This document shows, in pieces, positions 30,321 through 58,087 of a DNA stretch of 64,000 bases. Source of the DNA: Punctularia strigosozonata HHB-11173 SS5 (lineage: Eukaryota; Basidiomycota; Agaricomycetes; Corticiales; Punctulariaceae); assembly GCF_000264995.1 (NCBI RefSeq), contig NW_006767436.1:967414-1031413 (forward strand), written 5' to 3'. Below the pieces are notes generated by a model. The model saw nothing but the letters and a program-made list of their open reading frames with translations. It had not been told where the DNA came from and ran no database searches. The stretch's first letter is position 1. Every line of letters starts with the position of its first letter. The position numbers were made by a program, and so were the translations under genes.

Positions 30321-30968
30321 TCAGATACCAGACGACCGAGGGTTTCCACGAGTATCGATGGTCTTGGTTCCGTGAGCGTCGTTGAGTGCGGAAGAACCAC
30401 GACCACCTTCGATCGCAGACGCCTGTGACTGTTTCAACATCGCAATAACAGGAGTGCAAGCAAAATCTCTTACCGCTTGCAAGGTACCCTTCTCGAGCAA
30501 CGCTTTCACGGCATCAACGTCCTTGCTGGAGCCGAACGTGTCTTCGAGTTGTTGATGTGATGCTTGGCCAAGCTTGCCCTGCGAGCCTTGGTTCGTGAAG
30601 AATATGTGGAATGCTGATGAACGCATATTCAGCATGCGTCCTCAGTTCTCATGATTGAGTTGCTTACAGTCCACGACTTCCACGAGGGGTATCGTACTGC
30701 GTTGGGTTCAGCTTCAGAACAAATGGAAGCTGCCACAAGGACTCACGTATCTGGTAGGGAAATCAGCAAGATCGCTTCGCGCACCGGTGTCTACATGTGC
30801 TTACCTCCTTCTTTCCATTTCTTGTACTGATGAATGCAAACAATTCAGCGTCGCGCATGCTAATGCTTGACGACTTGACATTACCTCCTCGGGGTTCACG
30901 ATGACATGGTACTCATCGGTCGACTGAGAATCGGGCTTGTAGATGACCTTGCTGAGGGACTTGGGCAT
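30321..30968 (-). CDS. RTC3: SBDS-domain protein, RTC3 type
   Basis: Small protein of about 126 residues resembling yeast Rtc3, a single SBDS N-terminal-like domain with a suggested role in RNA metabolism. Six exons. Exon 1 is MPKSLSKVIYKPDSQSTDEY plus HVIVNPEE. Exon 2 is only 22 nt (30805-30826, YKKWKEG). Exon 3 is only 4 nt (30747-30750, ATAC). Exon 4 is 29 nt (30668-30696, TIPLVEVVD). Then SFHIFFTNQGSQGKLGQASH, QQLEDTFGSSKDVDAVKALL, and a low-complexity Gly/Ser tail. The tiny exons are needed to obtain KEGDTTIPLVEVVDSF in one frame with canonical GT..AG introns; without the 4-nt exon the frames do not connect. The identification is strong; cellular function is inferred from the yeast family only. 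Confidence 0.85.
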
Positions 30969-31202
30969 GATGGACGTGAGCGGATAGTGGTGAGATGAGT
31001 TCGTAGAGATTCGTAGGCGATGTAGCTGCAGAGTCATCGATCCATCACTCTTATACGGCGGACTAGCATGACGTCATAGTCATGCTACTTCGCGACGCTC
31101 CGAGGGTGCTCGGGCCACGTCGTTACTCAACGGCGGCAGTGTTTTCAATTCACCCACTCCAATCTGATCTTACACCACTCCGCAGAGACTACTATCGATT
31201 GG

Positions 31203-34200
31203 CTACGTCGGTCGTGGTGACGCAAAAGCGTCCATGCGCGACCAATCCGCCACAGCCCGCCGAGGATTGGGCGCGTTTGCGATGGTCATCAATGGTGCCA
31301 CCGAGGGCCTGAACAGGATGAGATCGGCAACAGGAAAACGACAAACATGGCGCACCTTCCGTGAGCGCATTGGAAAGGGAAGGCTTTCGTAGAGAGCTGT
31401 TCTATGAGACGTTCGCACTGTTCCTTCTTCAGAGGATCGTTGAACATGATGGCGCCTAGGAAGATCGAGTTATTATGTGATGCTGCATAGAAAAGGTGAT
31501 TTACCCCTGCATGCTTTCGAGTTGACCATTTCCAGAAGAGCGCCAGGCATCCAGCGTAGGGCAGATTGCCAGGAGCCCTCGTCAGCAGGATCTTCGGCGG
31601 TCTGTGGTCCGGAAGCAAATTCGCCTTCGCTTGTCAACTGCGCAATATACGTCTTCACGAACTCTTGAAGTTGATTACCCTGAGTGACCTAGGGAAACTC
31701 AATACGCATTGCTTCATTGACATGATTCGGATCATACCTTCTGCCCGACAATTAGAGGGACAGTGTGCACCACGACTTGACAGTAGTCCTTGCCGAGGGA
31801 GGAAGTCGAGCTGTCCTGTTCTGATACAGAAGTTATGTGAAAGCCCCATCGTTCGAATGCCTTCGCAATATATGCTGACCGAGCGAAGACACTTGCTTCG
31901 TGTTGCGTGAGCAATACCCTCTCCGGAGGGTCTAGCGGCAAGACCTCGACTCCCTGGCTTGTAGCAGGATCATATCGAAGATAACCCTGGCAAAGCTCTT
32001 CTAGGAAATGCTCTACGCGGACTCGCTCGTCGGCCGCATGCTGATCGACTAGAAATAACGATATTTCCGTCCGGGTATCCGCCTCGGCATCAAGCAAGCA
32101 TGCTATGAATTTCCTGTCGACTTGACCAAGGACTCTTGCACGGGCCAGTTGCCCTGCAGAAAGTTGCTGCGAGATCGGTTCTCCAAATTTGTTTGGCGCG
32201 TGGCCATATCGGTCATGGTGCGATTGAGAACACCGACCGAGGGACATGTAATCTGCCCTACGTACAGCATGGTTGCTGTGGGAGACCGCCGAGGCATGAG
32301 GAGGCACCGTCGGAATCGCAGGGTCCGACACGGAATAAGACTGATTAGCCTACGGCATCCGGGAAAAGGTCAGAATAGGTATCGATCCACTTCAAACATG
32401 ACTCCTACACAAAGCGCATTGCGAATCCAATCGGGAACTGTGTCAACAGTTTGCGACCCCGTGTGACGATCGCCGAGCTTCTTTATCCAGGGCGCGCTCA
32501 GAGTCCGTCGGCCCTCGTAAGTATCCCGACCCGAAGACCACTCGTGCCCATCTTGCAGGAGGGTAGTCGGATTCCTTTCCCTTCGATATGAGAACCCGGT
32601 GCGAGTATCGACGACAAACTGTTCGCCTGTGGAAGGATCCGTCCAAACCGATTTCGTCACATTCTCTTGCCCGTCGCCCTGCACGACGTTCATATTAGAG
32701 CAAAAATCCCCACCGACGTCCATGTGTAATGCATACAATGATAGTACACGCAGCGTCGAGTGAAGAGGGCTTGTTCTGGCACGCTGGTCGTGCCATCGAT
32801 CCAGTACGAGCAAGTATCGTAAGCTGGCCTTCCCCATGACTGGTCTTCAAACGCTTGGGCAATGGTGAGTGAACCGTAGCGGAACGACTCAACCGCTGCT
32901 GAGCAAATCCGTTCCGAACTAAGAAATGATGTATTGCGTCTCTGAGAAACGTCGAGACAGCTTCGTCAGTCTGAGTACGCGAAATGCCAAGAAAAGTTAT
33001 CAGATAAGGACGCATAGTCAAGCCCATTCCCATGCCGAGCACCTACCGCGAAGTGCACGGTCACCTTTGCCGGCTCGAGAACATTGTCAACATGCGCCCG
33101 CGATATTGTTAGATCCAGACAGTATACAGCATGGCGTTGAGCCTTCCGTGGCGATCGGCGGCTGGCTGGGGGAACGGTTCACATGAGCGTCGAAGCCTGA
33201 GAGCTCGGATGCCACAACCGGGAGAGAATGCGTACTTGATCGAGGGAGGCTGGTTGCGCCCGATTCATCGTAGGCCTATAGAATCGCTCGTGAGTCTGTG
33301 GGCACGGGAGAGCGCGACGTGGCACTGTACGTTCTTCCCGAAGGAACTCGCGGTAAACTGGCTTTCAATCACGTGGTGTAGACCGCCCTGTGCGATGGGG
33401 TGTTGATTCAAATCTATTCATCTTTTGGTAAGATACCACTCCGTCGGCGTGGAATATCCTGGAACTCTGCCACAGCTCACAGAGAAACTGGTATGACTGT
33501 GGACATATCAGTTCATGTGCTTCTCTATGCTCTCGGTGCCTACCTTCCCAAGAGCCCCTTCTAAACTGATGAAACCTTTCAATGCCATATCACCTGAGGT
33601 AACATTGATTTCCTCAACATGCTGGGCAATAGTAATGGAGGAATAGTAAGAACCAGCGCCGCGCACAACGCTGAATATTGTTATGCTCACCTCTGCTAGC
33701 GCCCTGCCAAACATGTGTCGAAACGATGCAACCGTGGAAGTGGTCTACAGGGGCAATCAATGGCATGAATGTATGGAATGCATAAGAGCAAACCTTCGGT
33801 ATTGCCATTAATCTCTTGGTGGTACGGGACGTGCTTGAGGCTCCACGATTATTGGTATCCTCAAGCGTGAAGGACACACCGGGAAACATCAGTGCATATG
33901 TTTCAATGTCCCTCTGGATCGTCTCCAGCGTCTTGCCAGGCGCCGTGTGCGACGAACGTCTGACTGGAATCTTCAGGGTATTCAATAAGAGTGAGTCACA
34001 AGAACGAGTTGCATAGGGTGCATACATTGAAGAATGCATCACGAATGCAGACTACGGTCCCTTGCGTCTCTCTTCGCCAGCGGACTGAAGGGCCGTCGTA
34101 CAAAATATTCGGGCCCTATATGCAGTATTCAAACACAGTTCGCGAGGACCGCAATGCTCATCAACCTTAACAAGAATAGACCAGCATTCTCGAGATACGT

Positions 34201-53713: not shown

Positions 53714-54777
<1,064 letters not shown>

Positions 54778-55544: not shown

Positions 55545-56434
55545 CTACGTAGAAATAACGACCGTTTGCTCCGTATCGACCTCCTTTGTGGTGACGGTCG
55601 TGACATCCACTACCTGTAAGATCGTTTGCAGCATCTCAACGATAATCTGGGACTGGCTCCTCTCGGATATCTGGTTCGAGACGATGCCGGTCACATCGTT
55701 CGAGTTACTAGAAACCGGCGCTCAGATGAGAACGTAGAAACGAGATGTCATCGGGGACTCACACGTTGATGCCGAAGGACTGTACTTGGTCGATGATCGT
55801 CTGAATGTCCTTCTGCTCGCTATGAGGAAGGATGAGCGTTTCAAAACATGAGTATTGCCAAGACGATGGCGCGCTCACATGGTCGTCTTTTGGACCTCGG
55901 TGACCACGAGAGACTTGACGACAGTTTGCACCACAATCGTCTCTCCTGCGTTTGAGCGCCTAATTATAACGTCACATCAACGCCGAGCTCGAATTGGAGG
56001 CTCTCTTCTCACCAATCAGATGAGATCTTGCCTGCGATGCTCTTCAGGGCGTCCGTCATGTTCGAAGGTAATGAATCCGTCACGTTCGAGTTGCTAAGAT
56101 TGGTCGAGTTGTAGGCGCTCGAGTTATTTGAGTCACTCGAGCTGACGTTGCTGTTGTTGTACAACGTGGAGTTGTACGCGTCCGCAGACAGAGAGTACAC
56201 CGACGTGTTGTTGTTGTTCGATCCGGACACCGTCGAGTTCGAGTTCGAGTCCGACGTATTATTTGACGACTGTACTGAGGTACTGTTCGAATCGTCCCGG
56301 ATCTGCCTACTCACAGCATCAGGCTAGCCATACCGGCACCCACGAGCAGAAATGACGTACCACATCGGGCGAGCTGTGGTTGAGGCCACAAGCATGGATA
56401 GAGCAAGCACACCGGCCGCGAAAAGTCGGACCAT
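55545..56434 (-). CDS. Small secreted Asn/Ser-rich protein A (tandem paralogue)
   Basis: No known family recognised. Start ATG at 56434: MVRLFAAGVLALSMLVASTT is a clear signal peptide (likely cut after TTA). Five exons, all introns phase 2. Exon 2 (56013-56306, 98 codons) is Asn/Ser/Thr-rich with about 15 N-x-S/T sequons, ending KSIAGKISSDW. Exon 3 is RSNAGETIVVQTVVKSLVVT plus EVQKTTM; exon 4 EQKDIQTIIDQVQSFGIN; exon 5 DVTGIVSNQISERSQSQIIV and EMLQTILQVVDVTTVTT, ending VVIST. About 220 residues, no cysteine in the mature part that I can see. It shares exon order and motifs with paralogue B 1 kb upstream on the same strand. Probably cell wall or extracellular. Function unknown. Confidence 0.72.
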
Positions 56435-57429: not shown

Positions 57430-58087
57430 CTAGACACCGAAGCTCGAGCTGACCAACCCAGAGCTCGAGCTGATGGACTCAGAGTTGACAGAGACAACGC
57501 TCATGATCTGCTCCAACATCTGGACGACGATCTCCTCTTCGCTGACGTTCACCATGTCGCTTTGGATAATGTTCACGATGTCGGACTGGTCACTGCACAG
57601 GTAATCGGTAATTGTCAGCCAGGCAATCATCTCAACTAGAGAAGATACAAACATGTCGATCCCGAATGAAGACATTTCGGAGATGATCTCCTGGATGTCG
57701 CTCTCCTCACTATTGACATTCGTCAGGGTAGTCTCTCACGAAGCGTGAACCGATTCACTCACACTACATTCTCGGAAACGGTTTCCAAGACCAAAGACTC
57801 GACCATTGAGTTTACAATGATGGTCTCAGAGGAGCTCGAGCGCCTAGACAGTGGATCAGTTCAGATTCGTGGTGAACATATGGCGCTCGTACCAGTCCGA
57901 AGAGATATGGCTACCGATGTTGTGCAAGTATCCGGATAGGTTAGAAGACACGGTCCTTGCTTGCCTAAACATGCTTTCATTCTTGAGTTTATTCCTTATG
58001 TTGTTTGAATACTTACATGACGGGTGCGGCGAAGATGGGGGCGATCGCTAAGAGAGCAACAGCAACGGCAGAGAAGATGCGAACCAT
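57430..58087 (-). CDS. Small secreted protein B (tandem paralogue)
   Basis: Paralogue of A, family unknown. Start ATG at 58087: MVRIFSAVAVALLAIAPIFA, a signal peptide ending about AAPV. Five exons, four introns all phase 2, matching A one for one. Exon 2 (57893-57964) is only 24 codons: QARTVSSNLSGYLHNIGSHI ending SSDW. Exon 3 SSSETIIVNSMVESLVLETV; exon 4 EESDIQEIISEMSSFGID; exon 5 SDIVNIIQSDMVNVSEEEIV and VQMLEQIMSVVSVNSES, ending SSSFGV. About 145 residues. Alternating hydrophobic and acidic/Ser residues in exons 3-5 suggest amphipathic helices. The extra residues of A are all in exon 2. Secretion is inferred; role unknown. Confidence 0.72.

Follow-up and report, generated by a model that had tools for sequence, protein, structure and literature searches.

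The window, by which we mean the whole stretch of 64,000 nucleotides of Punctularia strigosozonata that was analysed, carries on its minus strand, at 30968-30321, a predicted gene of six exons, the third of which would consist of the four nucleotides ATAC (Table 1). The product predicted with ATAC in place has 128 amino acids and reads ...NPEEYKKWKEGDTTIPLVEVVDSFHIFFTNQGSQGKLGQASHQQLEDTFG.... The start codon of exon 1 was chosen by us; another ATG lies upstream in frame, at 31037 on the minus strand, and would extend the protein by MTLQLHRLRISTNSSHHYPLTSI, a stretch that is probably 5' leader.

Table 1. Exons and introns of the predicted gene, in order of transcription. Ranks are those among 91 introns called in other gene models of the window, on a scale where rank 1 is a poor site and rank 84 a good one.
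Feature	Coordinates	Strand	Length (nt)	Description
Exon 1	30885..30968	-	84	Phase 0 end; MPKSLSKVIYKPDSQSTDEYHVIVNPEE
Intron 1	30827..30884	-	58	Donor GTAATG weak (2.57, rank 4/91); acceptor rank 24/91
Exon 2	30805..30826	-	22	YKKWKEG plus 1 base
Intron 2	30751..30804	-	54	GTAAGC ... GCTGATT ... CCAG
Exon 3 (candidate microexon ATAC)	30747..30750	-	4	Last two bases of an Asp codon and first two of a Thr codon
Intron 3	30697..30746	-	50	GTGAGT ... TCTGAAG ... GCAG
Exon 4	30668..30696	-	29	Encodes TIPLVEVVD; equivalents of S. pombe SNOR E43 and D46
Intron 4	30614..30667	-	54	
Exon 5	30474..30613	-	140	(S)FHIFFTNQGSQGKLG...LEKGTLQA
Intron 5	30429..30473	-	45	51 nt with the next AG; uncertain
Exon 6	30321..30428	-	108	Stop codon included; tail SQASAIEGGRGSSALNDAHGTKTIDTRGNPRSSGI

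Some features of the introns are recorded here for their own sake. The branch-like motif of intron 5 is poor (rank 3/91) and the intron has no in-frame stop; since its length is a multiple of three with either acceptor, an mRNA that retained it would encode 15 or 17 more residues ahead of the C-terminal tail. Introns 1 and 4 are alike in their last 20-odd bases (GCTGAA...TTCATCAG), with a similarity score of 21 that is reached by 16 of the 4560 intron pairs. The idea that introns 2 and 3 arose by duplication was also considered and found no support: their local alignment score of 10 is attained by 4258 of the 4560 pairs.

Several other loci of the window, all on the minus strand, deserve a mention. 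The upstream neighbour (31203-32693) has a weak match to the MutL C-terminal dimerisation domain (27.3 bits, cut-off 25), and the 5' part is missing from its model; we presume that it is perhaps an MLH3/PMS-type gene. At 53714-54741 lies a six-exon gene with short introns for a predicted 4Fe-4S protein, which we take to be the complex I subunit TYKY/NDUFS8. A second microexon was suspected in this gene and rejected, as our gene finder, which does make splice errors, had taken a wrong acceptor there; judging from the cysteine motif, we assume that it should have used the next AG upstream. The products of two neighbouring predicted genes (55545-56434 and 57430-58087) are small and related to each other; they share an ISSDWRS...ETI block (BLOSUM62 local score 194), and by eye their starts resemble signal peptides. 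Neither protein has a Pfam match at E 0.001.

The family of the six-exon gene had been given in the original prediction as RTC3-type, and this assignment is right. The Pfam family SBDS_N (PF01172) matches residues 6-96 of the 128 with 75.5 bits (cut-off 24.6) and is the sole family at E 0.001; the predicted product has this domain but lacks SBDS domains II-III. Among solved structures, its closest relative is the S. pombe 'SDO1-like protein C21C3.19' (9phc/9rvu; 60.1 bits, E = 2.6e-15), the next one is budding yeast 1nyn (29.6 bits, E = 7.4e-6), which we take to be S. cerevisiae YHR087W, and Sdo1 homologues follow at about 22 bits. In 2026 the S. pombe protein received the name SNOR (Rtc3); in dormant ribosomes it is described as occupying the peptidyl transferase centre and as helping translation restart, with its residues E43 and D46 in contact with the ribosomal protein uL16 (PMC13345908). 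According to the same source, a survey of 2,248 fungal genomes detected SNOR in 87% of them, and the share among the annotated Basidiomycota genomes was likewise 87%. In our alignment with SNOR the pattern D-x-T-[IV]-P-L-x-E-[IV]-V-D-S-F is kept, and between the Trp of exon 2 and the end of the block there is just one gap, of one residue. The residues encoded by ATAC face S. pombe Asp36-Lys37 (D36-K37), and those of exon 4 face Glu43 and Asp46 (E43, D46), both of which are kept; the numbering of the alignment matches that of the paper, as the same count locates E43, D46 and K68. The positions of the ribosome-contacting H96/R97 of SNOR fall outside the alignment. These matches support a host gene of the SNOR/Rtc3 type with an SBDS_N domain. 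Relatives of the gene were also sought in two collections that are viral and prokaryotic, not fungal (viral_contigs and genome_contigs), where 51 and 70 pattern matches contained no relative by tblastn, a miss that says little.

The original prediction had placed ATAC at 30750-30747 between introns of 54 and 50 nt, with exons of 22 and 29 nt beyond them, and these coordinates and sizes proved exact. The ordinary splice ends claimed for both introns are likewise there (GTAAGC..CCAG for intron 2, GTGAGT..GCAG for intron 3), as are the phases: one spare base ends exon 2, and exon 4 starts at the third base of a codon. Because these phases do not match, joining exon 2 straight to exon 4 gives a frameshift and a stop after 80 amino acids. 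With ATAC inserted, the predicted spliced junction is ...GAAGGAG-ATAC-TACGATACCC..., and the reading KEGDTTIPLVEVVDSF is restored, the S. pombe counterpart there being RK-DKTVPLTEIVDSF. ATAC is internal, with GT-AG introns on both sides, and its addition of in-frame coding sequence to a conserved protein is seen in the frame, in the alignment and in the Pfam score: SBDS_N is matched with 75.5 bits when ATAC is present, and with 20.6 bits, in a product truncated to 80 amino acids, if ATAC alone is skipped. The premature stop of the skipped form lies 32 nt before the exon 5/6 junction.

The splice signals were judged against profiles built from the sites of 91 introns that belong to 17 gene models elsewhere in the window, the SNOR/Rtc3-type gene being left out. 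These introns measure 46-94 nt (median 54). They were called by a small gene finder of our own making, whose consensus profiles are generic and whose length preference stops at 110 nt; the set therefore leans to consensus sites and to short introns. Introns derived from long flanking reading frames alone had been tried for this purpose and were too noisy. A Pfam check of seven finder models gave, for the four that belong to the intron set, two strong matches (AFG1 ATPase and glycosyl hydrolase family 3) and two models without a match; the other three, low-scoring models that were no part of the set, gave matches to prefoldin, to 4Fe-4S and, a weak one, to MutL_C. Among the 91 introns, intron 2 ranks 84 by its donor, 44 by its acceptor and 65 by its branch-like motif, and intron 3 ranks 35, 10 (a weak acceptor) and 42, respectively. 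Skipping of ATAC demands an intron of 108 nt, compared with 94 nt for the longest one called. On both strands of the window there are seven places, ATAC included, where an acceptor and a donor at least as good stand 1-12 nt apart.

How often such an arrangement arises by chance was estimated on the 108-nt stretch between exons 2 and 4, with its outer 8 and 12 bases fixed, microexons of 1-12 nt allowed, and acceptor, donor and branch scores added. A frame-fitting microexon scoring at least as high as ATAC occurred in 8 of 20,000 dinucleotide shuffles and in 3 of 20,000 random slices of the window; when the frame rule was dropped, the counts were 29 and 10 of 20,000. If both introns are to have at least 40 nt, the stretch itself offers four candidate internal exons, and ATAC is the sole one that fits the frame. 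At an intron minimum of 20 or 30 nt, two more candidates fit, among 18 and 14.

The gene finder has a generic splice consensus and no knowledge of the family, although the SNOR/Rtc3-type gene is among the models used to retrain its codon table. When informed of intron lengths, it picked the exons of 22, 4 and 29 nt at all three stringencies. In the models kept at the two stricter settings, no internal exon but ATAC was as short as 15 nt or less; the loosest setting produced spurious-looking internal exons of 0 and 2 nt elsewhere. With a flat length prior, ATAC was included in three of six runs, exon 2 was joined to exon 5 in two, and one run placed no minus-strand gene there; these flat-length runs were poor, with neighbouring genes fused.

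The frame could also be kept by one intron of greater length. Holding exons 1 and 5 constant, we enumerated the single GT-AG and GC-AG introns with a length of 30 nt upwards from the start of exon 2 to the end of exon 4; three of them lead in frame into exon 5, using a donor GTAGAC at 30794 (98 nt), a GC donor at 30800 (104 nt) or an acceptor at 30677 within exon 4 (128 nt). We hold it very unlikely that one of these replaces the two short introns, even though little of the Pfam match is lost with the donor variants (71.0 bits for GTAGAC and 74.9 for GC, against 75.5). All three are longer than any of the 91 introns called, each has a poor site or loses part of the conserved block (GTAGAC has just rank 4/91, the GC site scores -2.01, and the acceptor in exon 4 has rank 1/91 and leaves 57.4 bits, i.e., 18 bits are lost), and none accounts for the acceptor and donor that are so well placed on either side of ATAC. 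The score of GTAGAC is 2.96, and the accepted donor of intron 1 is slightly weaker at 2.57, so that donor strength alone does not dispose of this variant; it is the length and the unexplained good sites round ATAC that carry most weight against it.

A little harder to credit is the joint skipping of exons 3 and 4 (4 + 29 = 33 nt) as the main form, with exon 2 spliced to exon 5 over an intron of 191 nt. Such a transcript would be in frame and free of a stop, its outer sites are good (donor rank 84 and acceptor rank 50 among 91), it is the form that two of the six flat-length runs chose, and splice-site scores do not dispose of it. However, the Pfam score drops from 75.5 to 48.4 bits, the intron is twice the longest of the 91, and the lost block, DTTIPLVEVVD, is conserved in S. 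pombe SNOR and holds the uL16-contacting E43/D46. An assembly indel that puts exons 2 and 4 out of frame, ATAC then being intronic, seems to us hardly credible: the 108-nt intron is still needed, its branch motif, acceptor and donor would have to match by chance at the low frequencies given above (8/20,000 and 3/20,000), and both exon 2 and exon 4, once translated, agree with the alignment of the family. Practically negligible, in our view, is a 28-nt exon at 30774-30747 that contains ATAC and uses an acceptor GCGAAG; it is in frame, but it leaves an intron of 30 nt where the shortest of the 91 has 46, and it inserts eight residues that are absent from the two fungal solved relatives in the alignment.

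We believe that ATAC is, in all likelihood, a genuine internal exon of 4 nt in a SNOR/Rtc3-type gene, most likely a constitutive one, and that it is very probably ordinary in its mechanism. Its inclusion in the mature RNA and the route of its splicing are what we infer from the gene model. Since it is unlikely that four bases accommodate U1 and the 3' splice-site factors simultaneously, introns 2 and 3 would probably be recognised individually, each across its own length (intron definition). Removal of the first intron would leave a partly spliced RNA in which ATAC is fused to a larger exon, and the second intron would then be removed. Four nucleotides are enough for the exonic positions -3 to -1 of the donor as well as for the base that follows the acceptor, so neither splice site would lose its exonic bases. 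Intron 2 has the better donor and acceptor, which suggests that it is the first to go.

By analogy with the Trichoderma Xlr2 microexon, which is reported to be tuned by glucose, one could also think of exons 3 and 4 as a regulated in-frame cassette of 33 nt for the uL16-contacting loop of a SNOR-type factor, whose splicing would tune ribosome restart to the nutrient state; we consider this very unlikely. Were it so, inclusion of both exons would give the active protein, exclusion of both an in-frame protein without the contact loop, and exclusion of ATAC alone a truncated product.

ATAC offers a sharply testable case, namely a predicted exon of 4 nt between introns of about 50 nt, and exons so small between short introns are suited to testing intron definition and stepwise splicing. 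Exons as tiny as this one are easily missed. A gene model that omits ATAC loses either the ribosome-contact loop or everything past exon 2, and surveys of the newly described SNOR/Rtc3 could therefore miscount the gene or misread its product.

The original prediction further held that 4 nt is close to the lower limit known, which does not stand: constitutive exons of 1 nt have been verified in plants (PMC4674806, PMC8831610), and a micro-exon of 3 nt is reported in Drosophila homothorax (PMC7392893). The 1-nt exons of Arabidopsis APC11 (PMC4674806) and VPS55 resemble ATAC in being tiny, internal, coding, needed for the frame, flanked by GT-AG introns and missed by annotation. They differ in that the plant exons are proven by cDNA, and that of APC11 by reporter tests as well, whereas ATAC is predicted from the genomic sequence; the APC11 exon, moreover, was found inside an assigned intron of 422 nt, and ATAC lies between introns of 54 and 50 nt. 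For the APC11 exon, intron definition was held to be the more plausible model (PMC4674806). The homothorax exon is also very small, but it is alternatively spliced and a multiple of three (PMC7392893); ATAC has 4 nt, so that skipping it alone breaks the frame.

Closer to our species, the P450 genes of Phanerochaete chrysosporium (PMC1184071) and basidiomycetes generally (PMC2897884) are described as often having very small exons, and their introns are likewise small (45-55 bp); exons for fewer than 10 residues are called frequent in basidiomycetes (PMC2897884). The abundance of short introns in the window is consistent with a basidiomycete host. The shortest exon reported for the P450 genes has 6 bp (PMC1184071), compared with the 4 nt of ATAC, and a last exon of 6 nt is described in fungal peroxidase genes. 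The microexon of Trichoderma virens Xlr2 (PMC11121469) is fungal and, like ATAC, of a length that is no multiple of three; it is longer than ATAC, at 20 nt, and is reported to be glucose-regulated. Work on fungal microexons is called limited in one paper, and a limited search of the literature on microexons and small exons, basidiomycetes included, met no fungal exon of 4 nt, although one may be in print.

At the level of the protein, the nearest known system is S. pombe SNOR/Rtc3 (SPBC21C3.19; 9phc, 9rvu; PMC13345908), which belongs to the same family, consists of a single SBDS domain with a tail, and shares the conserved E43 and D46. The two differ at the position of SNOR Lys68, which is described as rRNA-contacting and strongly conserved (PMC13345908) and where the predicted product has a His, encoded in exon 5 (30474-30613, minus strand). 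As to the exon itself, since exons of 1 and 3 nt are documented, ATAC would be a very small example of a kind of microexon that is already known.
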